Shown here one piece after another: positions 8,348-56,500 of a stretch of 64,000 nt of DNA. The first letter of the stretch is position 1; every line of letters begins with the position of its first letter. The stretch is from a virus, in IMG/VR virus record IMGVR_UViG_3300028840_001395, positions 310,001 to 374,000 of that record. One strand, written 5' to 3'. The notes below the pieces were generated by a model. The model saw only the letters and a program-made list of their open reading frames with translations, searched no databases and was not told the origin of the DNA. Made by a program: the position numbers and the translations under genes.

Positions 8348-8472
8348 CACTTGCCTCCCTTGCGCTTGCGCCGTCCAGAGAACGTGCGCTTCCGCTTCCC
8401 CGTCCAGCGCCGGACGATGGTGACCTTGCCGGGCACCTCGACCAGCACCTCGGTCTTGACGCACTGTGCCAT
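8347..8472 (-). CDS. Very small basic protein (41 aa)
   Basis: This short ORF starts at ATG 8472, sharing one base with the upstream stop, and ends one base into the WGR-like gene. The first 22 residues form beta-like segments (T-E-V-L-V-E-V-P-G-K-V-T-I-V). The last 18 residues are almost all Lys, Arg and Gly, giving a strongly positive tail that should bind nucleic acid. No family is recognised. Support is the tight overlap chain on both sides and the ribosome site GGAGGCG. Confidence 0.6.
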   Translation of the reverse strand: MAQCVKTEVLVEVPGKVTIVRRWTGKRKRTFSGRRKRKGGK

Positions 8473-8654
8473 CACGCCTCCCCGGAGAAGCGGCCTCGGC
8501 ACGCCTTCTTGTTGGCCTGGTGCTTGCGGTCGCCCATCGTGACCGCCCGTCCGCGCCACTCGGCCAGGGTGCCCCCGGCGGCGAAGTGAGCGGCACGCGC
8601 CCCGCCCCGCTCGACGGAGGTGGCCTTGCTGTTGCCCTGATGCTGCCGTGCCAT
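8472..8654 (-). CDS. Small basic protein (60 aa), first gene of the leftward operon
   Basis: The ATG at 8654 follows AAAGGAGAAG at good spacing and lies only about 22 bases from the TAGTCT element of the leftward promoter, so this is the first translated gene. The 60-residue product is basic, with the phrase H-Q-A-N-K-K-A-C near residue 46 and a related H-Q-G-N-S-K-A-T near residue 5, suggesting two similar halves. Its stop overlaps the next start by one base. No family is recognised. Confidence 0.6.
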   Translation of the reverse strand: MARQHQGNSKATSVERGGARAAHFAAGGTLAEWRGRAVTMGDRKHQANKKACRGRFSGEA

Positions 8655-8676
8655 CGCACTTCTCCTTTCCTCCCCT

Positions 8677-8705
8677 AGACTACTCTGGCCCAGCCCGAAA
8701 TAAGA
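8677..8705 (-). promoter_or_regulatory. Leftward promoter, TCTTAT-N17-TAGTCT
   Basis: On the minus strand TCTTAT (8700-8705) is followed after exactly 17 bases by TAGTCT (8677-8682) and then AGGGG. The same arrangement recurs twice more in the window, each time just upstream of a gene. It should drive the operon 8654-5820. Confidence 0.7.
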
Positions 8706-8738
8706 CCCTTTCTTTCAAAAAGAATTCGCGCGCGAGGG

Positions 8739-8767
8739 TCTTATCTTGCCCCCCGACAGAGTAGTCT
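8739..8767 (+). promoter_or_regulatory. Rightward promoter, TCTTAT-N17-TAGTCT
   Basis: TCTTAT (8739-8744), a 17-base spacer and TAGTCT (8762-8767) followed by AGGGG mirror the leftward copy. It lies 19 bases before the start codon at 8787 and should drive the rightward accessory operon. Confidence 0.7.
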
Positions 8768-8786
8768 AGGGGAAGGGAGAGAGGCG

Positions 8787-9143
8787 ATGAACGGCATGGT
8801 CATTCACACCGCGAAAGTCGTCACCGAGCTGAAGGGGCTGACCTCCTGTGGCGAGGCCCGCAGGCTCATCGAGCGCGACCTGACCCCCGAGCAGCGGGAG
8901 CGGGTGCTGGCGCAGGAGGCCCGGTGGGAGGACTTCGAGCGCCGCGCCTGGGAGGGCGAGGACGAGGACGACGAGCCCGCCCCCGAGTGCGAGGGCTGCG
9001 ACTGCCCGGACGGGTGCGAGGGCTGCGTGGCGTGGGAGCTGGACGAGAGCATGGACGGCGACCACGAGAGCGGCCTGGCCAGCGCGGGCTTCGGGACGGA
9101 CGAGGACTACGGCTGCTTCGACGGCGGCTGCGACGAGTGGTAG
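8787..9143 (+). CDS. Acidic Cys-rich protein of unknown function
   Basis: The 118-residue product is strongly acidic. Residues 1-60 look helical. Residues 64-80 hold six cysteines in a short span (C-E-G-C-D-C-P-D-G-C-E-G-C pattern), which could bind metal. The C-terminal end is again acidic with two Cys and a final Trp. The ribosome site GGGAGAGAGG precedes ATG 8787; ATG 8796 is an alternative. It is the first gene after the rightward promoter, and no family is recognised. Confidence 0.7.
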   Translation: MNGMVIHTAKVVTELKGLTSCGEARRLIERDLTPEQRERVLAQEARWEDFERRAWEGEDEDDEPAPECEGCDCPDGCEGCVAWELDESMDGDHESGLASAGFGTDEDYGCFDGGCDEW

Positions 9144-9153
9144 GGAGGACGTG

Positions 9154-9753
9154 ATGGACCTGCAACTGATGAGAGCGGACATCGAGGCGGTTGCCGCCAA
9201 GGTGCTGCGTCGGCCCGTCAAGGTCAAGGTGGGCGAGATCACCGACATCGAGGGCGAGTCGGTCGAGGGCCTGACCGTGGACGGCGACATGTTCCTCTAC
9301 GCGGTCAAGCGGACGCGGAGCGGTCTGGGGGGCAAGCCCATCGAGTTCGAGATGGTCGCCATCGACATCCTGTTCGGCGGCGACGGGCAGTTCGTGGAGC
9401 CGGACGTGCGGCGTCACCCGAGCGACGGTGAGACGTTCCACGAAAGCGACGCCATCGCGGAGGTCATCGCGGTGCTGGCCCGTGCGGAAGCTCACGGGCA
9501 CCTGGAGGCCATCGGAGAGGCCCGGCACATCGCAGAGATGAACGAAGCCGCGAAGGGACTCGACGGCAAGACGGTGCCCCTGGTGCTGCCGCCGGGTTAC
9601 CCGGTCATGAAGATCGTCATCCAGCAGCGCACGGAGTGCAAGCACTGTGGCAAGGAGATGCCGAAGAACTCCGAGGGCTGGTGGGTGCGGACGACCGCCG
9701 AGCACAAGGGTGGGCTCTACCACACGGGCTGCATCAAGATCGAGGAGAAGTGA
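9154..9753 (+). CDS. Unknown protein with C-terminal zinc-ribbon-like motif
   Basis: I place the start at ATG 9154 because GGGAGG then sits five bases upstream; GTG 9151 is too close. The 199-residue protein has an alpha/beta N-terminal domain (residues 1-90) and a helical middle. A C-terminal segment has C-K-H-C near residue 164 and H-T-G-C about 24 residues later, a spacing that suits one zinc site. It is acidic overall. It lies ten bases after the previous gene, in the same operon. Function is unknown. Confidence 0.7.
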   Translation: MDLQLMRADIEAVAAKVLRRPVKVKVGEITDIEGESVEGLTVDGDMFLYAVKRTRSGLGGKPIEFEMVAIDILFGGDGQFVEPDVRRHPSDGETFHESDAIAEVIAVLARAEAHGHLEAIGEARHIAEMNEAAKGLDGKTVPLVLPPGYPVMKIVIQQRTECKHCGKEMPKNSEGWWVRTTAEHKGGLYHTGCIKIEEK

Positions 9754-9754
9754 C

Positions 9755-10198
9755 GTGAATCACGCTGCTATCCACACGGTCGTCCACACGAGCCATGAAC
9801 CCGACCGGCGACGCAGGCGTCGTCGGGCAGCCGATGGGATCACCCCCCGCGACAAGACCCGAGCGCCAGTCATCCCCGACCTGGACACGCTGCCTCCGTT
9901 CATGCTCGTGCCCGACACCGACGACCCCAAGGTCAGCCTCGTGTACGCCCTGGTGGACGGCATCGCCCGCTTCAAGGGTCGCATCTGGTTCACGGAGAAA
10001 TACCGCTACGGGGGCCGCGAGTATGGAGAGGGCTGGATGGCCGAAATCGCGGGCCGCGAGGATCCCGCTCAGCACGAGCACTTCTCCGACCGCACATGCA
10101 CCAAGAGCGGCAAGGCGACAGCCATCGGGAGGCTCGTGTCGCACCCCATCAGCCCGGAGATGTTGAAGAAAGGCTTATCTCGGGGTCGGGCAAAGTAG
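9755..10198 (+). CDS. Unknown protein, GTG start
   Basis: The frame opens at GTG 9755, one base after the previous stop, with GAGGAG eight bases upstream. The 147-residue product has a run of seven arginines near residues 19-25. A central beta-rich region follows (F-K-G-R-I-W-F-T, then Y-G-G-R-E-Y-G-E-G-W-M-A-E-I) that might be a nucleic-acid-binding or SH3-like fold. The last promoter copy of the window lies inside its final codons. No family is recognised. Confidence 0.65.
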   Translation: MNHAAIHTVVHTSHEPDRRRRRRRAADGITPRDKTRAPVIPDLDTLPPFMLVPDTDDPKVSLVYALVDGIARFKGRIWFTEKYRYGGREYGEGWMAEIAGREDPAQHEHFSDRTCTKSGKATAIGRLVSHPISPEMLKKGLSRGRAK

Positions 10199-10201
10199 TC
10201 T
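10173..10201 (+). promoter_or_regulatory. Rightward promoter copy, GCTTAT-N17-TAGTCT
   Basis: GCTTAT (10173-10178), a 17-base spacer and TAGTCT (10196-10201) followed by AGG repeat the arrangement at 8.7 kb with an unrelated spacer sequence. The copy overlaps the end of one gene and lies 16 bases before the start codon of the next, giving the DUF6011-like gene its own promoter. Confidence 0.65.
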
Positions 10202-10217
10202 AGGTGGAGGGATGATG

Positions 10218-11186
10218 ATGGATACCACAGCGACACCCAAGACCCCGGAGACCCACGCTGCCATCGCCCAGATCACCGCGAGCCACTGCTGCGTGTGCCG
10301 GGCGGAACTCACCGACGCCGAGAGCGTCGAGCACGGCATCGGGCCGGTCTGCTCCAAGCGTTACTACAACCCGCTGCACAAGCCCGACGCGAGCCAGATC
10401 AAGAACGCCCTCGGGCTGCTGGCCTGCTCCGACCTGCCCGAGCACATCCAGGACGGGTTCCTCAAGCTCGTCAACACCAAGGGCGGCGAGCCGCACGCCA
10501 ACGCCCGGCTCGCGTGCAACCTGCTGGTGTACTGGGCCTCGGCCCACTTCGACAACCGCGACGAGGTGTTCAAGTGCAGCGCCATCGTCCGCACGTTGGG
10601 CTACACCGAGCTGGCTGACAAGCTGGAAGCGGACCGCACGGTCGCCATCGTCCGCGAGCACTCCGACCACATCGAGGCCTTCATCCCCGACAAGTACCGC
10701 TTCCGGGGCGACATGCGGGACATCCCCGGCGCGGAGGCGCTCACGACCACCGAGTCCAGCCCCACGGGCGACACGGTGGAGAAGCCGCTCAAGGTCGGTC
10801 GCAAGGTCGGCTGGAAGGTGCCCATCGCGGAGAAGGACTACTTCCTGACCGTCCTGGGCTACCACTGCGGCGGCGACCTCGCCTGCGGTGACGGGCGCAT
10901 CTGGAAGATCCCGAACAAGCGGTGGGCAGACCTCCGACCCTTCAAGGCCCCCGCCCAGGCGACCACGGGGACGGCCCCGGCCAACGGGAGCATCCGGCTG
11001 GAGGACACCCCGAACGGTCACGTCCGCGTGTTCACCCCCTACAACACGGACTTCATCACCGACCTCAAGAAGATCCCCTGGAAGCAGCGCCGCTGGAACC
11101 CCAACGCCCGGTGTTGGGAGGTGGGCAAGAAGTACGAGGGTCGAGCCAAGGAGCTGATCAAGACCCACTACGGGGTGGCCCTGTGA
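10218..11186 (+). CDS. DUF6011-like / HARP-like two-domain protein
   Basis: Three ATG codons stand in a row; the third (10218) has the best spacing from GGAGGG, giving 322 residues. Residues 23-50 match DUF6011-type zinc motifs: C24-x2-C27, L-T-D-A-E-S-V, then G-I-G-P-V-C45. Residues 50-220 are helical and unrecognised. Residues about 265-320 resemble the HARP fold of SMARCAL1-type proteins: F-T-P-Y-N-T-D-F, then R-R-W-N-P-N-A-R-C-W-E-V and a final helix. HARP-like modules bind branched or single-stranded DNA, so DNA binding is likely. The next gene starts inside its stop (GTGA). Confidence 0.8.
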   Translation: MDTTATPKTPETHAAIAQITASHCCVCRAELTDAESVEHGIGPVCSKRYYNPLHKPDASQIKNALGLLACSDLPEHIQDGFLKLVNTKGGEPHANARLACNLLVYWASAHFDNRDEVFKCSAIVRTLGYTELADKLEADRTVAIVREHSDHIEAFIPDKYRFRGDMRDIPGAEALTTTESSPTGDTVEKPLKVGRKVGWKVPIAEKDYFLTVLGYHCGGDLACGDGRIWKIPNKRWADLRPFKAPAQATTGTAPANGSIRLEDTPNGHVRVFTPYNTDFITDLKKIPWKQRRWNPNARCWEVGKKYEGRAKELIKTHYGVAL

Positions 11187-28636: not shown

Positions 28637-31600
28637 TCACCGATATGAGCCAGGCGGTGCATTTTTGAAGAGAACGGCAGAGTTCAACTCGCCGCCCAAC
28701 GCATGTTGCCCGATGACCTTGCCTGTATCATCTACCACCGGCCCCACATAGTTCCCGCCGCTGGCATAGAGGTAGTTGTTCGGAAGCTCGACGCCACCCA
28801 CGGTGGGCAGAAGCTCATCCACAGGGGTAGGGGGCTTCTCCCAGAACGCAGACCCGCTCAAGGTCAGAAGGAAGCCACCAAAGGGGCTCCCCGTAGTCTG
28901 ACCTGTCTCATACAGCCCAGCACTGGCTCCGGTGCCCCCCAGAGGAGGCCCCGTGCCATCGGGACTGTAGATGGGGTCTCCACCCACATCCGAGTAGCCC
29001 GATTCACCCAGCGGAAGCCCACCCTCGCACATGGTCGAGAGCAGCCCCTCATCCCCAGAACTGACCTCGAAGAAGTCCAGTTCTTCATAAAGAGCTTCGG
29101 GATCATTCGTGAAATTCAGGATGCGGTAGTCCAAGCTGCCAATCGAGGCCCCGAGAGAAGCCCCGAGAGAAGCCCCCACCGAGTCAGGAACCGTGGCGAT
29201 CTCCCAGTGGTCGGTGCCCTGCTGGCTCTTGGGGACCGGAGGGGTGCCCTCGTTGAGCAGCGTCACGCTGTCCAGGAGGGGCTGAGCTTCGAGGTAGGTG
29301 TTCGTGACCGGCTTGCCGGGGATGAAAACGATGGTGACGGGGACGTTATCCCCGGAGAACGTGTAGTCGTTCCCCTCGTCGTCCTGGCCTAGCGTGATGG
29401 TCTGGCCGTCCGCCGCGAGGGTGAACATCTCGTAGGTGAAGATGGTATCCCCATCCACGATCTTCCAGATGCTCTGGGCGAAGAGATGGGCGGGCTTCAG
29501 CGTCACCCGGCGGCTATCGAGGGTGGTGACTACCACGCTCTCGTGGAGCAAGTCCTTGGTCATCTCACCGCTGGTGATGACGTTGCTGTAATTCAAGACC
29601 ATGTGCTGCGGTGCGGTGTAGTCGTTCGTGATGGGCTTGAACAGCTTGTAGCGAACGAAGTCCCACCGCTGCTGGGTCACGGACTCGGGATTCAAAGCAC
29701 CCCAGGAGACCTTCCCGAAGTTCGATTCCACCCTCGGCAGATCGGGGTACTCGACGTTGATCCATCCCGCCGAAGGCTCGGTCGTGTAGGTGGCGAATCC
29801 GGTGCCGGGAACGCCCGGAGTCTCCGGCTTGTAGTAGGGCGGCAGCGGGAGGTCAGGCCGGAATACGGTGACACCCCAGTCCGGCGTCTGGAACACCCGC
29901 AGATCCACGTAGTCGCGCCAGTCCATCTCCTCGATGACGGGGCCATACTGGGCCGAGTTCTGGGCCGATGAGTTATCCGTCCGGGGGATCTCCCAGGAGT
30001 TGATGTCGGTCTTGTCTCCGCCCCGCCAGACTCCGAGCGTGCGCTTGCACTCGTCGGTGGGCCGGAGGGAGTAGCTCAGCGACCGCCACCGCGATTCGCT
30101 AGCCAGACTCTGCGTAACGCCGGATACCGTGTTGTGCGCCCCAAACACGCAGGTATTCTGTCCCGTGTTGCCGGGGAAATCGAAGAGGTTGCGTGGGGGT
30201 GACTGCGCCTCGTCATCGATGTAGAGCGTGACCGCACTGAGCGGCGCGACGACACGGTAGGTATGGAACTCCCCGTCGTCCCACTCGAAAGGGTATTCCT
30301 GAACCACAAGGTCATCGATATCGATGAGTTGGACGCTGCTGTTTGGTCCGCCTCGAAGACGTACTCCGACATGGTGGTCGCCGCCCACGTCGGCGTGGAA
30401 CCGGATGCCAGTGTTGCCATTCGCATCTCCCGTCCATGAGTCCACAGCAATCCGGGCCTCGATGATACGCCCGCCCTGGTCAGAGAACGGCAATCCCGTC
30501 TTGTCCAGATGGCTCGTGAACTGGATGGTCTCCCCGGCACTCTGGCTCACCACCAGGTCTTGGGCCTGAACCGCCCTCGACCCATCCGAACCCGAGACCA
30601 CCTCCCAACCCTGCTCGGTCGGGTCGAGGATCCCCGAGATGCTCTCCACGGGCAGATCAACAAGCTGACGCCAGCTTGTGCCAGGTTGGTTCTCCACGTA
30701 CAAGAGCGTCGCCAGGCGAACCTCGCGCTGACCATCGTTCAGAATCGCCTCGGCATCTCCAGCACCCAACGTCCCTGACTCAACTTTGAACTTCAGTCGG
30801 AGGTCGAAGTTCGAGTCCGGGGCGAAGAATGGCTCCAATCTTTCGTAACCGAAGCTGAAATCCAAACTTTCGGAGGCCGTTGTGCCCTTGAGAAGCAGAA
30901 CATCGCCGCTGGAGTCAACTTCCGAGTACCCAAAGGGCTGGGTGATGAACCACAGTTCCGCGTCTTCCTCGCACTCGGGCAACTCGTCCATCTCGGTGTA
31001 CACCCGGAGGGCGAAGTCCCGAAGGTTCGTCTGATCTGGCACCACAGCGTAGCGGGTGAACGACCAGACCGACTGGTTCGTCCCTCGGCGGCTCAGTGAC
31101 CCCCAGAAGAACTGCCCACCCTGGCCGATGACAAGGTTCAAGCCCGTGTTGGCGGGCTCCTCCAGAGTGCAGACCGTCGAGGTCAGGTCGAGGAGGGTCG
31201 CCGTAGTCAGACCCGACATCGTGAGCTGAATACGCTGGGTGTCGGGGTCAACCACGAAGCGGTAGGACGAAGCCGTCCCCTGCCACTGGGTCTCGAAGAT
31301 GACTTCGGGGTAAGTGTTCCCGAACAGCTTGGGGTCAGCCGGGAAGGCCGGGCTCACCGTGATGGTCGTTGTCCCGTCACACTGGGCCACGACATGCTCT
31401 GCCGTGTACACCCCAGCCTGGGTGCCCTCAAGGATCTGGAACCTGTCACCGTCTGCCAGGTCTTGTGGGGCCTCGGCGGTGTTGACGATGAGGGTCGTGC
31501 TGTCCTCGATAGTCCCGGTGGTCTTGGAACCAAGCTCCCAGGACTCGACATTGTGGATGTAGCGGGCGTCGAGCAGCATCCCGACATGTTGTAGGCCATT

Positions 31601-34039
31601 CACCGACAGTGCGCCGACCAGGTAGAGATGCTGATCGTTGTGGAAGCCGAACCCGACTCCAGTGAACACACCGTCAGGAGAGAGGTTCTCTTCCTCGACA
31701 TGGAATCGAGCGACCATGCTGATCGAGGCCGGGAAGGTCAGGTCTTCCAGCCTGTAATACTCGGCCACCTGGGGGTCGTCGGGGTCGAAGGAACCACTCT
31801 GGAGATCGATGACGGTGTAGGTGCCCTCGTTGATGTTGACCTGGCCCGTATCCGTCCCCAGAAGCTCCCAGACGGGCGAACTCGCTATGGGGGTCTGTGT
31901 GCCCTCATAGGAGACAGCATAGCCCGCCAGCGCCCTCTCAAAGCCCTCCTGCTGCCCTGCGTGGGGACTCTGGTTCATCAGGAGCGTCGTGGGGCTGTTC
32001 AGGAGTGCGGAGTACTCCCTCTCGAAGCCCATGTAGCGGTGCCCGATGAGCTTGGGCTGAGGCCGACTGATCGGCCCCATGACGAGACCCATCGGGAACC
32101 GGGCCGTATCCGCTGCCCCCAGTCCAGCATCTGTGTCACCGTGCCAGGCCGGGTCGTGGTGCCCTCGGGCTCGGTTCCACTTGTTGAACACCAGGCCCAG
32201 CGTGTTGAGGCCCTCCATCACCATGATGGGGGTGTTCATCCACTTGTAGTCGAGCGACACGTCGAAGTCAGGGGTGCCCGGTGGCATCAGTGGGATGGGA
32301 ATGGCGGTCTTGATCTCCCCGATGTAGGGATTGACCGATGCAACCTCGACCGGGACTCCATTGACCTCGACCGTCACGTCCTGGTCTGTCGCGGGAGTCG
32401 CATCACCCCAGCCCTTGACCAGCGGCCCCCGCTTGGTCAACACCGAGTCATTGGCCAGCGAGGGGTCACCGATGAAGGATGACCCGGCGTTGTGCATGAA
32501 GTTCCAGGCTGCCGAGAACACGGTCTTGGTCGCCGTGTAGGAGATACCCCGGACGGTGAAACCCTCGACACTGAACGCCTCGTCGTAAAAGAACCAAGAA
32601 GCCCCACCATCACCCATCGAGGGCTGGTCGAAGAGAGCCTCGGCCCCCGAGGTGAGGGGAAGCTCGTTGAACAGGATGGCGTAGATGCCACCCTTGCGGT
32701 TCCTGACCACCGATACGGTGTTGGTGCCTGTGCTCCACTCGACGTTGAGCGTCGTATCGAAGGTTCCACACTGGATGCGAAGCTGATCAGCTCCGAGATT
32801 CTGCTGGAACGTGATGTCCACCTGGACACCCATGCCAGGCGGGCCACTCTGCACCCGGAACACCCCGACGTGAGGGTTCGGGAAAGATGAGAGCGGCGGA
32901 ACGTACTGGGTCGTCTCGGCGTTGAACGTGAAGTCCACCCGGAAGCTCGCCGGGTCGAGGGACGCCTTGCCCGTCGTATCCCAGAATCCCCAGCCGTAGG
33001 GTTCGTTGGCGACCTTGGACATCCACAGGTAGTTCGACACGATCTGCGATGTGCCGTTGGCCGGGAAGATCTCGATGCCGTCGAAGGTCGGGTCATCGCT
33101 CGGGAGCACAGAGCCGTCGTAGCTGATGGCTGTCGCAGGAGAGATGCTGGTTGCATAGTCCAGGGAGGTCATCCCCGTGACCTGCATGTGGACTTGATGC
33201 GGATCCCCACCATAGGGGTGCGTCACCGTCACGGGCGTGATGTCGATGGGGTAGTCCGGCGTCGGGGTGAACCCGTAGGACTCGGGGGCCAGGATGCCGT
33301 AGAGGTTCCCGACCGGCTCCTCTGCCTCGGGGAGCATGGCATGGAGGAAACTGAAGATCAGTTCATCCCCACTGATGGGGTAGACCACATAGGGCGGAGG
33401 CTCACCCTTGGTGTAGAGCGTCACCGGCACGTTGAGGATGGGGTTGCCCGAGATGTCGGTCGGCCCAGAGCAGTTGATCTGGTAGGTGCCACCCAGCATC
33501 GTTCCCGTGTGGGTGAGGATGACCGATGTAACCCCCCGCAGGTAGTCTCCGACCGAGATGCCCAGCGAGCCCATATCCCCGATATCGACGCGGGTGACCA
33601 CCGAGGGGCCACCGATGAGCGGTGTCAACGTGTAGCTGGCCGGGTCGGTCAGTGCGGGGTTGTTCGGGTCCATCGGCTCGGAGAAGAAGACCTCGATCTC
33701 CCAGCCGTTGAGGCTCAAGGCTGAGAGCATCCGGGGTGGGATGTGCTCGATAGACCCGTAGGGGCCTGTCCCGAAGGCGTCGCCGCCGTAGCCGCCGTCC
33801 ACCTCGATGTCGGGAGCCGGGAACATCCGACTGCCGTAGGAGGCCATCCCGTAGGGACTTCCTACAGGAGAAGTCCCCTGCCCGCCTCCGGGAACCCATC
33901 CCACGCCGCCGTAGCCAGAACCTTCGGGGTAGGAAGGGCAATCGTAGACCGCCTCCTGTCCCGGAGGGGGGAACGGCCCAGACCCGAACACGCTCCACTG
34001 GTAGCACTCGCTCGGGTCAGTATCAGGAGTCCAGCCCAA
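28637..34039 (-). CDS. Giant adhesin-like structural protein with Ig-like and lectin-like domains (1800 aa)
   Basis: The start is a TTG at 34039, directly after an in-frame TAG and eight bases from AGGGGG; the next Met is about residue 65. Residues 30-95 are Gly/Pro/Tyr-rich. Residues 100-215 resemble a bacterial Ig-like (SbsA/Big_5) domain: L-N-G-W-E-I-E-V-F-F-S-E-P-M-D, then D-I-S-G-N-P-I. Two regions look like concanavalin-type lectin folds (around 770-830 with G-V-G-F-G-F-H-N-D, and around 1165-1320 with N-T-G-I-R-F-H-A-D and H-T-Y-R-V). A short G-A-S-L repeat lies near 1625-1640. It should be virion-exposed and bind host glycans. No catalytic motif is recognised. Confidence 0.75.
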   Translation of the reverse strand: MGWTPDTDPSECYQWSVFGSGPFPPPGQEAVYDCPSYPEGSGYGGVGWVPGGGQGTSPVGSPYGMASYGSRMFPAPDIEVDGGYGGDAFGTGPYGSIEHIPPRMLSALSLNGWEIEVFFSEPMDPNNPALTDPASYTLTPLIGGPSVVTRVDIGDMGSLGISVGDYLRGVTSVILTHTGTMLGGTYQINCSGPTDISGNPILNVPVTLYTKGEPPPYVVYPISGDELIFSFLHAMLPEAEEPVGNLYGILAPESYGFTPTPDYPIDITPVTVTHPYGGDPHQVHMQVTGMTSLDYATSISPATAISYDGSVLPSDDPTFDGIEIFPANGTSQIVSNYLWMSKVANEPYGWGFWDTTGKASLDPASFRVDFTFNAETTQYVPPLSSFPNPHVGVFRVQSGPPGMGVQVDITFQQNLGADQLRIQCGTFDTTLNVEWSTGTNTVSVVRNRKGGIYAILFNELPLTSGAEALFDQPSMGDGGASWFFYDEAFSVEGFTVRGISYTATKTVFSAAWNFMHNAGSSFIGDPSLANDSVLTKRGPLVKGWGDATPATDQDVTVEVNGVPVEVASVNPYIGEIKTAIPIPLMPPGTPDFDVSLDYKWMNTPIMVMEGLNTLGLVFNKWNRARGHHDPAWHGDTDAGLGAADTARFPMGLVMGPISRPQPKLIGHRYMGFEREYSALLNSPTTLLMNQSPHAGQQEGFERALAGYAVSYEGTQTPIASSPVWELLGTDTGQVNINEGTYTVIDLQSGSFDPDDPQVAEYYRLEDLTFPASISMVARFHVEEENLSPDGVFTGVGFGFHNDQHLYLVGALSVNGLQHVGMLLDARYIHNVESWELGSKTTGTIEDSTTLIVNTAEAPQDLADGDRFQILEGTQAGVYTAEHVVAQCDGTTTITVSPAFPADPKLFGNTYPEVIFETQWQGTASSYRFVVDPDTQRIQLTMSGLTTATLLDLTSTVCTLEEPANTGLNLVIGQGGQFFWGSLSRRGTNQSVWSFTRYAVVPDQTNLRDFALRVYTEMDELPECEEDAELWFITQPFGYSEVDSSGDVLLLKGTTASESLDFSFGYERLEPFFAPDSNFDLRLKFKVESGTLGAGDAEAILNDGQREVRLATLLYVENQPGTSWRQLVDLPVESISGILDPTEQGWEVVSGSDGSRAVQAQDLVVSQSAGETIQFTSHLDKTGLPFSDQGGRIIEARIAVDSWTGDANGNTGIRFHADVGGDHHVGVRLRGGPNSSVQLIDIDDLVVQEYPFEWDDGEFHTYRVVAPLSAVTLYIDDEAQSPPRNLFDFPGNTGQNTCVFGAHNTVSGVTQSLASESRWRSLSYSLRPTDECKRTLGVWRGGDKTDINSWEIPRTDNSSAQNSAQYGPVIEEMDWRDYVDLRVFQTPDWGVTVFRPDLPLPPYYKPETPGVPGTGFATYTTEPSAGWINVEYPDLPRVESNFGKVSWGALNPESVTQQRWDFVRYKLFKPITNDYTAPQHMVLNYSNVITSGEMTKDLLHESVVVTTLDSRRVTLKPAHLFAQSIWKIVDGDTIFTYEMFTLAADGQTITLGQDDEGNDYTFSGDNVPVTIVFIPGKPVTNTYLEAQPLLDSVTLLNEGTPPVPKSQQGTDHWEIATVPDSVGASLGASLGASIGSLDYRILNFTNDPEALYEELDFFEVSSGDEGLLSTMCEGGLPLGESGYSDVGGDPIYSPDGTGPPLGGTGASAGLYETGQTTGSPFGGFLLTLSGSAFWEKPPTPVDELLPTVGGVELPNNYLYASGGNYVGPVVDDTGKVIGQHALGGELNSAVLFKNAPPGSYR

Positions 34040-47297: not shown

Positions 47298-47530
47298 CAG
47301 CGCCCTCCGCCGAACTGCAGCCGATTCAACTGCTCACGGAGCTGAAGGATCGTCTTTCGGTCATCCTCCACCGCACCTTCCAAGAGGGTCTTCAGCTTCT
47401 CCAACGCCACTTTCTGACGGTCAACCATCGGCAGCCGGACGGTACGCTCGGGGGAATCGCCCCACTGGCCTGGGTCGAGGCCTAGCTTCTTCAGAAGCTC
47501 CTGGATCTCCTTCAGGTCAGACTCATTCAT
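47297..47530 (-). CDS. Small coiled-coil protein (77 aa)
   Basis: The ATG at 47530 overlaps the giant gene's stop by four bases, and its own stop overlaps the next start by one base. The product is charged and helical (I-Q-E-L-L-K-K-L-G-L at the start, K-V-A-L-E-K-L-K-T-L-L-E later, and R-E-Q-L-N-R-L), compatible with a two-helix coiled coil. Such small genes between large tail genes often encode assembly chaperones or small wedge parts. No family is recognised. Confidence 0.7.
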   Translation of the reverse strand: MNESDLKEIQELLKKLGLDPGQWGDSPERTVRLPMVDRQKVALEKLKTLLEGAVEDDRKTILQLREQLNRLQFGGGR

Positions 47531-50500
47531 TCGCCAATTCCCTCAATCGAGTCTTCAAGGAGGAGCAGACGCTTCTGCTCCTCCAGGCGCTCGGGAAGTT
47601 CCTCATCAAACCGCACGATGGACGCCAGAGTGCCCAGCTTCACATGGGTACGGTAGGCCAGCCACACGAAGCGGATGGGCCGGAAGCGGTCTCGGGTGTC
47701 GAGCACCTCGTCCACCCGCTCGGGCAGCACGGGGCGCACCACCCCTCCTGTAGAGAAATCGGTATAGGCCGTGTAGGCAGTATCACCGGGGCTGATCCTG
47801 ACCATCTTCAGCGTCGGGTCAGCGGGGTCGGGCTTCAGGAAGTCAAGCCGCCAGTCCTGAATCCAGAATCGACGGTCGAGCAAGGACAGGCAGCTCTCGT
47901 TGTTGATGTAGGGCACCACGTCCAGGCGTCCCAGGATGGACGTGATGTAGTCGTTGGACAGCAGACCCAGACCGGCCTGTGGGTTGGTCGTGTTGCCCAG
48001 GTCGCTGATGTGCTCATCCCGCTGGAAGATGAAGTAGCTGCCGCTCTTGTAGCCCGAGATCACCGCCCGGATCATCTCAATCCACGAGAGCATCCTCTCC
48101 CTGGTCGAGAGCACCAGGTCGATAGTCTCGTCTGTGAACAGCCCGGAAGCCCGGATGACCCGGTAGCCGAAGGGCCGGATGGAGTAGTACTGAAGGTGGT
48201 TTGTCGGGTAGTTCGAGAACGTCCCGTTCGCCGCCCGCTCGTAGGTCGGGCGTAGATCCATCTGGCCCTCGTCCGCGTCCTGTCCGAAGTAGTCCCGAAG
48301 CTGCGAATCATGGATGGTCGGATACACGGCGTACTCGTAGGCATCTGTCGGGGGTGTCCCGAAGATCACGTCATTGTCCACGTCACCCGTGAATGTCGTC
48401 ACCGGGTCCACTTCCAGGTAGGGCGGGTTGCTCGCATCCGCCAGACTGGTGACCCGATAGAAGCCCCGGTTGTCATCCAGGTCGTCAGGAGTCCCCGCCG
48501 TGTAGATGTTATTGGGGGGCGGGGGGCCAGGACGACTGGCCACACCGTCATCTCCGATAGGCCGGGCTCCCTGCTCCTGAGTCGAGGGCAGGCCACTCTT
48601 CCTCGGAATCTTGCCCACCGGGTCAACGATCACGATGTCACCCGGCTGGATACCCAAAGCACTGAACGGCTGGTCAGGAGTCGGGGCATGGAGGTCGTCC
48701 ATGAGTCGGTTGGCGACATCTCCCCAGTCCGGTGTCGGGGCACCCTCCATGTCCGGAACATGACCACCGAGTTCGCCTGCCACGTCGCCCCAGGTGGGGA
48801 ACGTGCGATGCACCACTCGGTCGGTGATGAGTTCGAGAAGCTGCTCGTTCGACTGCTCATGTGGGACAGGAGGCCGCCGGAGGTAGATCTCGAACCGCAT
48901 CCCGCCATCCGGGTTGCCACTCTCGGTCATCTCCGCGACCGTGTACTTGGTCAGGCCCGGCGCAGCCAGGAGAATCTCCCGGTCGCTCAAGATGCTTTCG
49001 ATCTGGGCCTCGTCCACCAGGTCACCGAACTCATCGAGCAATCGAAGCTGGTCGCCTGCGTTGACGTTCACATCCTCGTCGTTGAACGGACCGAGGTTCG
49101 TGCCCGTGTAGGTGTAGCCGTCGTTCCAGGGGTCAGCCTGATGCGGGGTGTGGGAGTCGTCCCAGTTCATCACGAAGTCGTTGGCTGTCAGGATTCCGCC
49201 CTGCTTGGCCGTGACCAAGTAGTTCTTGATGCGTCCTCGCCGGATCTCATAGGCATAGCGGAGAGGCTTGAGGTTCGAGTCGGCCTCCTCCTGAATCTCG
49301 TGCCACCTGCGGATACGTCGAACCTCGTAGTTGACCTGCTCGGGCTGATTGAGGAATCCAGGCGTGATGTTGTAGCTCCAGGCGTCCCGCATCCCCACCT
49401 GACGGTCTTCATCAACAAGGGGCTGGGGGTCGGGCAAGCTGTGGGACGTGTCCACCACCTTGGCATCGCTGTTCGCCAGGTCGAGGGTGGGCCGGGGCAC
49501 CGAGGGCTCCAGGAAGATGCCCGCCTGGGCGTAGTGGCCGGGTGCAAAAGGAGGCCCGATGGAGAGTGGAACGCTATCCCGGATCTCCAGGGAGGTGCCC
49601 GGCAAAATGCACTTGAGCTGTGTTCCGTTGAAGCCGTTGAGGTTCCGCCAGCTCGGAGAGGGTGCCGCAGCACCCACGGTCGGAATGGAGTCCAATCGAA
49701 TGGTGTGAACCACGTAGTCATAGACTGGCGCAAGCTCATCGTTCTCGAAGATCCAGGGTGTCGGCGGGTTGTCTGTCTCAATCCCCAGATGAGGCGGCGT
49801 AGGGGCGACCGGGTAGGGGGCGACGTTGAGTTCGATCTCGCTCGGCCCAGCCGAGGCATCCCAGAAAATACCCGTGCCCGCGTTCAAGGCAGGCTGGAAC
49901 GTCACATACTTGAACCCTGCGACGCTTCCCACTCCAGAGGGGTCGTGCCAGCCCACCGTGTTGTTGTCTGGCAGCCCGTAGGACTCGCCGGACACGTTCA
50001 CAGGCAGGAACATCATCCCCGACACCTGGTAGGGCTTGTCTGTGATGAGGGCCTTAAACTCATCGGGCGTCATGCCGGTAACGGTGCCATCCGAATATCG
50101 GACGGCGGTTAGTCCCTCGATGACAAGCCGTTCGCCATCGAGAGAAAGACCCGTGTAATTAGCCATGATCACAGCCCGGCGGCGGGTCTCCAGGTCGCTG
50201 CTGTTGAGGTCATTCACGCTACGGATGATGTACACCCGCTCGCCCGCTATCGCCGGGAGGAAACCCGTGGTCGTGCCTCCTACCGGAGTGCCGCCCCTTG
50301 CGGGAGCCGGGTCAGAAAGGGTCAGGTTCCGGGTGGCCGTATCGAAGTCCACCACGGTCGGGAAGTGAATAGGACACCACCCCGACTCCGAGCCCGCCAA
50401 CGTCACGGGTGCGTCACCACCCGAGTCCTGGGAGATCCGATAGTCCGAGTGGAGCCCGAAGTTATCGGACTCCACGACATGCCGGACAACGTAGGTGCCC

Positions 50501-53500
50501 GCCTTGGTCGAGGCCAGATGATTACCACCTGGGTTCGACTCAACCACCAGAATGTCCCCCGACTCGATGTTCTCCAAGAGCCCGTTGGTGGGAGCAACCG
50601 AGATGATCACCCGGTTGTCCACCAGGAGGGGGTCATACGGACCCGCAATGATGTCCGGGTTGTACTGACTCGCCATTCCACCAGCACCTCGGCAGATACG
50701 CCCGCCAGAGAAGCGTTCGTCGGAAGGAATGGCCGAGAAGGTCACGTCGTCGGACGTGGTGATCTCGGTGTTGTTCCAGCCCTCGAAGGCCATCGCCTTG
50801 ATTGTCCCCTGCTCGTAGTCCAGCAAGAGATCGGTCTTCCTCTGCCAGTCGCCGGGGGTGCTCCCTACCGTTCGGGTCTTGAACGTGAACGGGTTGGGGA
50901 TGACCCCAGTGAAACCATTGGCTGTGGCGTTGACCCAGCTCTGAATCGCTCCGACCGAAGGGTGGTTCATCGTCACCAGGGTCACGACGAGCCCAGCTTC
51001 AAGCTGCAACTGGGTGTAGGGTGGAGGTGGAGGGCCTCCCGAGTAGGGATAGACCGTCCCACGCTCCTGAGCCATCCGCAGGTCAAACACCTCATGGAAA
51101 GTGAGCCGGTCGTTGTCCACCCAGGCCGTGTCCGACTCCCCGGTGGCCGCATTGAAGGTGTCGATGTCGAAGGTGAACTCGAAGCCGTAGTTCATCGTGT
51201 AGGTCGGGCCTGCCGTCACCGTATGCGGAAGGAACCACTCGGCTGTCGTGCCCGGACCAGGCCCCCAAGGAATCATCCCGATCTGCGGGATGATGATCTC
51301 CTTGTTGTCGAGTACAGCCTCCGCAGGTGGCCCGTTCACCGGAACCGGCCACTTCGTCCCGAAGGCCACATCGAATCCAGGGATGAGCGCGAACGGCCCG
51401 TAGATATTCCCCTGATAGTCCGTCAGGGTGATGGAGCCACCCTGAATCTGGATGGTCAAGGCCACCACCCCACCCGAAACGCTGGGCAGCGGGTTGCCTC
51501 CCAGCGGCCCATTCAAGATGGCGGGGTCGAGCCTGGAGATGAGCTTGATGGTGATGATGTTGTTGGACTTCGGCCCTATCAAGCTCCAGATCCGGTTCAG
51601 ATTCCCTGTGGGAGTGCCTCCAGGGCTGGGGCCATACACAGGAACCGGAGTGAACCCGTCATTGAGGGCGAACTGGCCCAGCGAACTGAAGTCGAGACGG
51701 GTGATGTTGTTGGCCTGATCCTCGATGATCTGCACACCGGGGCTGGCAGGCGGTCCGGAGTCGGCAGGAGCCCCGTCCGCATAGGACATGGCATTCGTGA
51801 ATATGTAGCTGACCGGCGAAGGGGTCACCGGGACGCCACCAGGTGGCGGCGGTGTCGTCTGAGTGATGAAACGAGGCGGCTCGAACTTCGACCCCGCCGG
51901 AGGCGGAGTCAGAGTGTCAATCTCCCCGATAGACTGGATGCCCATCGGGCCTACCGTCGTTGCAGGGCCACCCGAGACCTCGAACTTGCTTGCACTCGCC
52001 TCGGCGGCCTGGATGAGAAGCAAGTCGTAACGCTTGATGTCCCCGATACCAGGCTCAGTGATACCGTGGAGCCTGGGCTCCGCGTCCTCGTCCGTGAGGA
52101 GAGAAGCCGGAGTTGCAAAGCCCGGCGGCTGGGCTGGCCCTAGAACCGCACCGTCCGTCCCCAAGATCTCATCGGGATAGATGTATCCGCCCAAATCGTC
52201 CACCTCGGTCATCACGGGCGAGATACCGATCATCGCCTCATCGAAGCGATCAAGCTCGGTGTTGGCAGCCTTGATGTAGGGGATCTGGTAGTCCCCGGAA
52301 TCATCCACAACCTCGCCCCGCAACGCCGGGAACTGGAATGGGTTCAGGCCGTCGTAGTAGAACCGGACATCCGCTTCCAGGTAAGAAAGCGGGTCCGGCG
52401 GATGCTGCCCGAAGATCTCCTTGATGCCGAAAAGCGAAGGGTCGTAGAAGGACGGCCAGGTCTTGTCCACCACCCGACCGCTGCCCGTGACCCTCACATC
52501 GTAGCCCGTCCGGTAGTCATCGAGGCCCTGAGCCAGTTCGATGATGTCGTCCTGAGTCGCAGCGTTGCTCGTCCCTCCCGCGATAGGCGCATCGAGGCTC
52601 TTGAGCGGAGGCCCTGCGAAGATGGTGTCGTGAGTCTCCACCGGGAAGTCCGCGAACGGGATGCCGACATCCGTTCCCGTTCCTACGAGGATGTCGTTCG
52701 GGTTCGTGATGGGTGCCTTGGGCGGCACGACCCCAAGCCCCTGGGGGGACTGGAAGCGAATGACACAGCCATAGCTGATGTCATAGACCTGCAACCCCAG
52801 AAACGTCCATGTCGGGTCGAAGGGGTTTGCGAGAATCTTGCGGTTCCAGAACGCATCGTAGGTCGTCCCGTCCGGCTTCCCCAGAGAGACCTCATCCCCC
52901 CTCTCAAAGCCAGGTACGACCAACTCGGGATCACCAGCCACAGCGTCCGGGAGCCATGCCTCCGAGTTGGAGAGCCCGAAGCCCTGCGAGATGAGCTGTG
53001 AGTCGTCCGGGAACCCTGTCCCCGGATCGATAGGGATGTCCCTCAAGAGAGCCGGAACCGCGATGAGGCATGGCTCGGTGATGGACGGGTCTGCTCCGCC
53101 GGGCTCCGTTCCTCCCTGGAAGGAGAAGTCAGGGATGCCGTTCGGGAAGTATCCCCAGATGCGAGCCCGTGCCCGGCGACGCGACAGCTTGACGTTCGAC
53201 ACCCGCCGGTCGATGTCCCCCAGCGCCGGGTTCCAGAGCTGTCCAATGGTCTTGCCCGTCGTGCGCTTCTTGTCCCCGAAGAAGATGGCCCCATAGGTGT
53301 AGCGGCCAGCACTCCAGGCATCCGGATCCTCTGTCTCCTGGTTGCCCCCGACGCCGGGGTACGACATGAAGAAGGCCCGAGTCTCGGTCGGGAAGATGCG
53401 GGAGAACCGGCTCCGCTGATAGAGGGTGCGGAAGCGGCCCTTGACCTTGTAGTAGAAGAACGGGTAGCGCAGCTTGAAGAACAGCTTGGGCCTCGCCAGG

Positions 53501-56500
53501 CTGGTCATCACCATGTCGTCCACGTCGTTCTTGATGAGCGGACGCTGCTGTTCCAGAAGGCGTCCCACACGATCAGGGTTGGGGAAGGAGCCCTCCACCA
53601 CCCCGCCGTCGAGGTCTTGCGAGCCCGGCCTGACAATCCAGTCCGTGGTCAGGTAGAACAGCTCGGCTCCAGGGTCGGCCTGATTGAACACCTCTGACCA
53701 GATGTTCCGCCGCGTCAGGTCACCCGAGATGTCGTCCTCGTAGCCCGGAGTCGGGTAGTCCTTCCCCCGACCGACCCAGAATCGGAACTTGCCATCCCGG
53801 TCACCGATGAAGCCACCGGAGATGGTCTCGTTGATCTGCTCGAAGGACACGATGGATGAGTTGTAGAAGTCGAGGAACGCCCGTGCCGCCCGATCCTGAT
53901 CCTCCAGGGCACTGCGCTCCGACTTGAGCCCGATGCGACCCTGCTCCCAGTTCTCCTGGCCAGGGCCAGAGGTCAGGATGGCCCCGCCAGCGGGCTCCTG
54001 GCTCCGGATGTCCTCGATAGCATCCTGGGCCGCTTCGACCAGGAACTCCGGCATCGAGACCGCCCGGTAGTAGAAGCTGTCCGGGTTGCGGAAGGTGAAC
54101 GTCCCTGTGAGCTGAGCGTTGAGGAAGCCGTTGTCGTCGCTCGGGGCGATGTTGTAGAGGTAGCTCGCCGCATAGCGCGGGAAAGACACCGTGCCGCCGT
54201 CCCAGAAGGGCTGAAGCACCCGGAGCCGGGTGAAGGTGAAAACGAGCTTCTGGGTGGGCTCCAGGGGCTCCTGGAGGGGTTCCAGGAGCGTGATGGCACC
54301 CGTGTCCGGGTCGAGGGTGTATTCGACCCCCTCGATGAGCGTCCGGCCCGGCAGTTCGTTGCCTGCGGTGTCCGTCTCCCCGTAGAGGATCAACTCGTAG
54401 GGTTCATCGATGACCAGCGGCCCAACACCATTGAACTCGAAGCTCTGTGGAGCGTAGATGGGCCGGTAGGTCAACTTGATGGTCGTGGCTTCCTCGACCG
54501 AGTAGCCCGTCTTGAACTGGTTGGTGACGGTGATCTTGGTTCGGGTGCCGTCATCGGTCAACTCGGCCTGGCCGATGGTGTGAGGCTCCCCGCCCACCTC
54601 GATGATGTGCCCCGGCTGGGCGAACGCCAGGAGGTTGCCGAGGAAGATGACCTCCATCTGTCCCCGGTTGATAGGCTCGAATGGGAAGTCCGTGAGGTCG
54701 ATGGCCGACATGAGCCCCGCAGCGGCACTGGTCGGGATAGGGCTCGACCCATCCGGGTCGATGACAGACGTGATCGGCAGGTTGGACACCGCGCTGATCG
54801 AGTCGTTGCCCGGTGACCGACTACCGACTTCCGTGACAGTCGAGGGGAAGATATTGACCGCCGTGACATCCCCGGTGCCTTCGTCATTCTGGGGGTAGTA
54901 CTTGGTGCTCTCGATGTAGAATGTCTCGTTGTCCACCCGGAGAATCTGCCCCGGCTGGAACTCATCGGCTCGGTCTCCTCGAAGGCCGAAGCGGGACTGG
55001 CCCGCCTCGATGAAGAACGGGGGCCGATAGAGAGGCTTGGTGCTCGCGTCATAGGCCCGCTCGCCCCCGATGGCTTCAAGGACAGCGTAGGACACCTGGA
55101 CGGTCACATGGTCAGGGATTTCCCTGGTGAATGAGAGCCTTCCCTGACCGTTGAGGTAATCCGGGTAGTCGAGGATGTAGTCCAGGGCGTTGTAGTTCTG
55201 CATCACCGCGCCGATGTACACGAGGGGCTCGATGCGCTGATCGATGGTGCGCCGAGGATCGACGTTGAAGTAGAACACGCTGGGGGACACAGCATCTTCG
55301 TCCCGAACCGCCTCCTCGTCCTGGATGTACACCGGAAGGAACTCGGTGATCTGGTCGCCAACCTTGCGACCTTCCAGGTCAGCCGCCCAGTAGGACACCT
55401 CCACGGTCGAGTTCTCGGACACGGGCTGGTTGAAGGCGAACGACCCCAGAAGCGGGTTGATAGCCACGTCCTCCCGCTCCTCGGTGATCATGCGCTCCAC
55501 GAAGTAGGCCGTCGTGGAACCCCCGAAGGTACTGATCTCGGTCGCGGAGAAGTTGAGCCGACCGTTCGTGGGGTCATACTCAACCGTCAGAGCGGCCAGA
55601 TCCGCCGGAGGCTGGAACGCCTGGGCATAGTGAACCACCGAGGACTCGTAGTTGACCAGGAGGTTCGAGCCGAACTTGAGCCGACCGATGGGGTTCACCA
55701 CACCATCGATGGTCGCCTCCTGGGTCAGATACTCAATGCCGTCACCACCACCCGGATTCGAGCTGAAAGTCGTCACACCCTTGAGGAGCACACCATCATT
55801 CTCGAATACCGTGGTGCCGATCTTGATGGAGAAGGAGCCCGTCGTGAACCGCTGCGAGTCCGTCTCCGGCACATCCAGGGCGTTGTTCGCCAGGGTGCCA
55901 AGCTCCGTCTGAGTCAGAGCGATCATCGAAGCCGTGTTCGCCGCCGTGGCTGCCACAAGCCCGAAGCGGATACCGATGGGCCGGTTGCTCGCCAGGGCCT
56001 TCTCCATGTAGGCGAACAGCCGAGAGTTCTCCTGAGCAGTAGAACTCTCGGGCACCGTACCCACGGGCGACAACAGAAAGACCTCGAAGGGCTCTGATTG
56101 CAGGTGGTTGAACGTCTTGTAGGACATATCAGCCACGATGGACGGGTCGTACACGTCCTCGGTGACGCCCTCATACAGTTCCCAGGTGACCAATCGCTCG
56201 GGTGTCCCGGTCGGTGTGGGAGAGATCCTGATATTCTGGGCGTCCACCACCTCCTGCACGACGTAGGAGCCTGCCACGGGCTCTCCGCCGGACAGCACCT
56301 TGAGCCGGTAACCGGGCTCGGCCTGGGTGAAGTCGGTGTCGGTGGAGTCGTCGGAGAAGGTGTCACTCCCCTCCGTGATGACACCTCGGGCACCCGAAGA
56401 GACCACCGACCCCAGCTTCTCGACCAGAACCGCGATGCCCGGAATCCCGTTCTCGGGAAGCAGGTAGTCGGTGTCCTGTGTCTGGAACTCGGCAGAACCA

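Follow-up and report, generated by a model that had tools for sequence, protein, structure and literature searches.

A two-block promoter element across a huge phage genome, with a phage-encoded ECF-like sigma factor as its probable reader

Three copies of a two-part sequence stand just ahead of genes in the DNA of a huge phage, and we ask whether they are promoters and, if so, which factor reads them. The window (the whole stretch of 64,000 bases that was analysed) comprises bases 310,001-374,000 of a virus record that is 435,804 bases long in full. An earlier note had described the element as TCTTAT and a second hexamer, held 17 bases apart and always followed by AGG, and had named a phage-encoded sigma factor, a host alternative sigma factor and sigma appropriation as possible explanations. 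A sequence check found all three copies where they had been reported. TCTTAT is the first half in two of the three; the third has GCTTAT, the first base being G or T. The copies, with coordinates running to the end of AGG, and the first genes under them are as follows:

Copy 1, 8674..8705, minus strand: TCTTAT-N17-TAGTCTAGG, upstream of the leftward gene 8472-8654; forms a divergent pair with copy 2.
Copy 2, 8739..8770, plus strand: TCTTAT-N17-TAGTCTAGG, upstream of the rightward gene 8787-9143.
Copy 3, 10173..10204, plus strand: GCTTAT-N17-TAGTCTAGG, then GGAGG and the start codon of gene 10218-11186; overlaps the preceding ORF at its 3' end.
First gene under copy 1, 8472..8654, minus strand: 60 aa, without a Pfam match.
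First gene under copy 2, 8787..9143, plus strand: 118 aa, without a Pfam match.
First gene under copy 3, 10218..11186, plus strand: DUF6011 match (E 3e-8); three possible ATGs, from 10212, and a product of 322-324 aa accordingly.

Within the window, four matches at three or fewer mismatches were found against 0.4 expected from window shuffles, the fourth being a 3-mismatch, intragenic match at 55155. Over the whole record, the original pattern gave 49 copies at up to two mismatches, compared with 2 for the reversed pattern. A refined consensus, KCTTAYY-N13-RAGTAGTCTAGG followed by a ribosome site, occurs at 26, 45, 54 and 57 sites when 0, 1, 2 and 3 mismatches are allowed. The 17-base distance between the hexamers held throughout: a spacer of 17 yields 54 matches at up to two mismatches, and each spacer of 12-16 or 18-22 yields 0-11. 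A same-strand gene start lies within 110 nt downstream of 45 of the 57 sites (79%, against 6.5% for random positions), and 44 of the 57 have an intergenic centre in a genome of which about 7% is intergenic. As gene starts were the output of a simple purpose-written gene caller, individual assignments may be wrong. The genome-wide scan proposed in the earlier note thus revealed an element enriched at intergenic, gene-proximal, same-strand sites, with about 57 copies rather than none, or a scatter inside genes at the rate of chance. Because of its genome-wide placement, orientation and fixed spacing, chance is excluded and the promoter reading of the element is supported.

An alignment of 63 sites, which takes in weak sites as well, resolves two information-rich blocks, gGKCTTAYYT and nAGAGTAGTCTAGG. 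The spacer between them is uninformative. AGG is frequent after the element rather than invariable (A in 43, G in 55 and G in 49 of the aligned sites); the downstream half is conserved as reported, although its block is longer, namely RAGTAGTCTAGG. The remoteness of the hexamers from those of sigma-70 was confirmed as well: the upstream block matches TTGACA at one of six bases, and the element does not fit TTGACA-N17-TATAAT. From the end of the element to the start codon there are usually 12-18 nt, with the ribosome site in between. Divergent pairs number eight, including the window pair 8674/8739.

All but eight of the sites (49/57) fall within 41-276 kb, a region with many small genes that also holds the tmRNA and almost every one of the roughly 70 predicted tRNAs. 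No copy fell in the long block of structural genes (322-390 kb) when the whole record was scanned. Genes immediately downstream of element sites include those for an NAD-dependent DNA ligase, a PARP-type ADP-ribosyltransferase, AAA ATPases and a polynucleotide kinase/phosphatase-like protein; the site at genome 84,897 leads into a tRNA array whose first tRNA is at about 85,246. This census suggests that the element class serves early or middle genes, a timing that, like the transcription start site, we infer.

Several other features of the record were observed. Four element copies lie in about 220 bases between the divergent genes for an 872-aa protein and an AAA ATPase (record 95,335-99,429). 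An orphan plus-strand copy at record 391,127, flanked on both sides by leftward structural genes, has no rightward gene called in the 14 kb downstream and could drive a small or antisense RNA. The tmRNA tag is ANDEAVLQAA, and several of the predicted tRNA genes are of undetermined or doubtful type. The structural block holds an ORF of 3931 aa (window 47,527-59,322, minus strand) that is kept in relatives. An exact search of IMG/VR with the element returned three low-GC contigs with single matches each, which were set aside as chance.

To ask what might read the element, we searched for polymerases and sigma-like proteins. The phage genome contains neither an RNA polymerase beta domain (PF00562) nor a beta-prime catalytic motif, and a pattern search, which is a weak test, gave no convincing motif set of a T7-type polymerase. 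The phage appears to be without a detectable multisubunit RNA polymerase. Its sigma-like proteins are:

Candidate sigma, genome 158,752-159,789, minus strand: 345 aa, with sigma regions 2 and 4.
201-aa protein, 31,416-32,021, minus strand: two region-4 helix-turn-helix domains; core gene.
382-aa sigma-like protein, 63,762-64,910, plus strand: core gene, weak region-4 match.
171-aa region-4 protein, record 241,411-241,926, minus strand: cysteine-rich N-terminal part (RPCPYVTCKYNLYLDV).

Searches with region 2 and with region 4 both lead to the orthologous gene of the 345-aa protein, and in two relatives weak matches to the two regions share one frame. By itself the sequence from this phage (G000) stays below the curated Pfam score (PF07638, 14.9 bits against 21.1), and the G004 ortholog reaches 21.0 bits against the same cut-off. 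A profile of four orthologs matches the sigma-H structure 3mzy in the PDB (2.7e-5), a profile of 38 homologs matches sigma-H with an E-value of 8.2e-8, and 16 of these 38 match Sigma70_r2 (best 2.3e-8). The AlphaFold model has two confident helical domains, residues 155-235 and 270-344 (pLDDT mostly over 90). A further domain, N-terminal and separate, spans about 90 modelled residues; the protein's N-terminal extension measures about 150 residues. The leading Foldseek matches of this model are nearly all sigma factors, ECF sigma-H first; their E-values reach a modest 0.003 at best, owing to a different placement of the two domains. Among 50,697 phage records, a relative was detectable only in the uncultured LR745208.1. 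Homologs also occur in two GTDB bins, Altiarchaeales (an archaeon) and Terriglobia (a bacterium); these contigs are probably misbinned phage DNA and offer a possible host lead.

A search with the 201-aa protein identified relatives of the phage: W01 (LR745208.1, 485 kb), G001 (536 kb), G004 (402 kb) and one 68-kb fragment, with no cultured member of the lineage in the collections searched. Counterparts of 113 phage genes are present in all three large relatives. The element of G000 is not enriched in any of the three, and motifs were therefore discovered in them de novo. Each was found to have one dominant two-block motif upstream of genes: CTTACTT-N-GCGTAGAT (99 sites), CTAAAAA-N-GCCGATAGGG (42) and AGGTAAC-N-GAGTAG (40). 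The same analysis was extended to eight further records that encode homologs of the candidate sigma, using stretches of 100-160 kb. Seven of the eight have an abundant two-block motif, six of them in the layout of G000; G014 has none within the stretch analysed, where 95% of the DNA is coding and the genes may be structural. One layout is thus common to 10 of the 11 phages that have both the sigma family and an abundant upstream motif. Within it, the -10 is [CA]GTA[GT] in nine phages and CCGATA in W01, and the -35 differs in almost every phage of the set. In G011 the -35 is a few bases closer to the -10 than elsewhere. The stretch 400,001-560,000 of G017, a 618-kb record that encodes a sigma homolog, has an abundant motif outside the common layout, CTTGA....TATCACATCGG.CCCATA.TAA.

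Matrices for these motifs were aligned on the -10 through hand-chosen seeds from dyad tables, the position of the -35 then being free. Scanned across the phages, they proved nearly orthogonal: each recovers 13-130 sites from the sequence that it belongs to and hardly any from the others. The exception is the G009 matrix, with 19 matches in G000; GAGTAG is common to both. Reversed matrices gave no matches at the same threshold.

Region 2 of a sigma factor reads the -10, and region 4 reads the -35. Mean identity among the eleven sigmas is 58% in region 2 and 24% in region 4. A conserved region 2 and a divergent region 4 parallel the similar -10 and the diverse -35, as expected, though not proof, if the 345-aa protein is the reader. 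Pairwise comparisons by Mantel test were not significant, either for region 4 against -35 similarity (r=0.19, p=0.12) or for region 2 against -10 similarity (r=0.36, p=0.10). Similar region 4 sequences predicted a promoter of the G010/G012 type for G014 and one of the G016 type for G017; neither was found in the stretches scanned.

Of the options in the earlier note, a phage-encoded sigma is favoured because there is a protein with regions 2 and 4, no detectable polymerase, and a layout common to 10 of 11 phages; that the 345-aa protein is the reader, and the host core polymerase its partner, we infer. Sigma appropriation could be carried out by the encoded proteins that have region 4 only. 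A phage-specific promoter read by the 201-aa or the 382-aa protein, as a sigma or by appropriating a host sigma, is an unlikely alternative. No sigma match is stronger than that of the 201-aa protein (PF08281, 1.2e-12; PHROG sigma factor, 6.7e-15), whose core gene is separated from a clamp-loader-like gene by a single gene; the 382-aa protein is likewise core and matches region 4 weakly. However, no region 2, which is needed for a -10, was detected in the 201-aa protein, and this protein is well conserved among relatives (53-71%), whereas the -35 is not.

These two factors could instead serve another class of promoters. Once the sites of the first class had been masked, CGGTA-N6-CCTATA emerged as an element upstream of 34 genes, some of them structural. 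Examples are:

Gene starting at record 26,296, minus strand: CGGTA-N6-CCTATA upstream.
Gene starting at record 338,498 (window 28,498), minus strand: CGGTA-N6-CCTATA upstream.
Gene starting at record 428,792, minus strand: CGGTA-N6-CCTATA upstream.

In the upstream regions of G000, G001, G004, G012 and G014, the sense strand carries the dyad CGGT-N7-CTAT 2-5 times as often as the antisense strand does. Matches of the G000 matrix for this class lie near gene starts in 18 of 23 cases in G014 and 17 of 30 in G004, although most genomes also yield matches to the reversed matrix. The element looks like a promoter class common to the clade, perhaps a late one.

The sigma-like genes may themselves be under host control. 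Upstream of the 201-aa gene in G000 is a sigma-70-like match of 11/12, in the top 0.6% of all gene upstreams; the two other sigma-like genes have matches of 9/12 (top 5%), and the W01 ortholog of the candidate sigma has one of 11/12. Such matches are absent in G001 and for two of the three sigma-like genes in G004, and gene upstream regions as a whole show no general enrichment of sigma-70-like promoters. In a plausible cascade, host sigma-70 would serve the gene of the phage sigma, which would in turn serve the element-controlled genes. A second paralog of the double region-4 protein was seen only in W01 (153,904-154,695, plus strand), which also has the sigma-28-looking class 1 motif. The 171-aa protein was set aside as reader, having neither a region 2 nor a relative in the phage collection; it is possibly a host-derived regulator.

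That a host alternative sigma reads the element is improbable, given that the -35 differs between related phages. The W01 motif, TAAA-N15-GCCGATAGGG, equals the FliA/sigma-28 consensus. W01 is alone in fitting the sigma-28 pattern TAAA-N15-GCCGATAA, G000 having CTTA-N15-GAGTAGTC, and the sigma-28 consensus is highly conserved across bacteria. For the motifs of G000, G001 and G009 we know of no matching host sigma consensus. Ten phages would need ten different host sigmas in one layout, yet all encode homologs of one sigma. The motifs of several relatives do resemble the promoters of bacterial ECF sigmas, which have AAC at -35 and CGT at -10 (PMC4153023): this feature is present or nearly so in G004, G010, G011 and G016, with CGTA at -10 in several (e.g. 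TGTAAAC-N16-CGTA in G016).

The element can hardly be the operator of a phage regulator, nor a ribosome-site element or RNA leader. Start codons do lie nearby, and at its AGG end it runs into the ribosome site, but its two separate blocks have strictly fixed spacing and a single orientation relative to the gene, it also precedes the tRNA array, where a ribosome site is unneeded, and the median distance from motif to start codon in other phages is 20-61 nt.

The favoured reading, in which a phage-encoded sigma reads the element, has counterparts in known systems. In phiEco32 and 7-11, which encode a sigma of their own, phage-specific middle and late promoters were likewise found from sequence alone; host polymerase is assumed to be redirected, and the early promoters are sigma-70-like (PMC4331800). 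Their promoters consist of one compact TGATGT/TATA-type block in low copy, whereas here there are two blocks with fixed spacing in about 57 copies, and the sigma family matches, in the phage collection, only LR745208.1. Bacterial ECF (group 4) sigmas, which consist of regions 2 and 4 on a linker and lack regions 1.1 and 3, resemble the candidate in having these two regions and provide the closest solved structures. The candidate departs from them in its N-terminal extension and separate N-terminal domain and in its scores below the Pfam cut-offs, and where ECF promoters have AAC and CGT, that of G000 has CTTAT and AGTAG. We call the candidate ECF-like, without placing it as a member of the ECF group, because G000 fits ECF promoters in layout alone and several relatives fit more fully. 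Jumbo phages of the phiKZ/AR9 type have very large genomes and genome-wide phage-specific promoters as well, but carry their own multisubunit polymerases (PMC5312081, PMC9209446). In jumbo phages that lack a polymerase, sigma factors are expected to bring the host polymerase to phage-specific promoters, according to two accounts (PMC7824862, PMC13282480), the latter a recent review that considers this use of phage sigmas probable. The passages concerned name no promoters, whereas here the promoter sets of ten phages were read and found to diverge. Phage sigma factors are already known; this lineage and its series of diverged promoters appear undescribed, no description of its promoters having been found in an open-access library, which covers only a minor part of the subscription literature.

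We consider it likely that an ECF-like sigma encoded by the phage uses these elements as its promoters and redirects the host RNA polymerase to them. The huge phage would depend on the host enzyme and, after infection, would make its own divergent ECF-like sigma, the 345-aa protein, which would bind the host core polymerase. Region 2 would recognise the AGTAG-type -10 and region 4 the phage-specific -35 of a two-block promoter (-35-like GKCTTAYY and -10-like RAGTAGTCTAGG) that would control one gene class. Transcription would start a few bases downstream of the element, giving a leader of roughly 12-15 nt with the ribosome site.

The promoter sets and the candidate sigma, read from sequence, make the transcription programme of an uncultured lineage testable in vitro. 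The diverged promoters represent a natural experiment on the evolution of region 4 specificity and might supply orthogonal parts for expression systems in the laboratory. More tentatively, and with doubt prevailing, the lineage as a whole may possess a single ECF-like sigma that evolves fast and changes its -35 specificity between phages, with the -10 and the separate, probably late promoter conserved. If this is true, these phages would offer, as a series that arose in nature, sigma-promoter systems almost orthogonal to one another, which may bar co-infecting relatives from using each other's genes.
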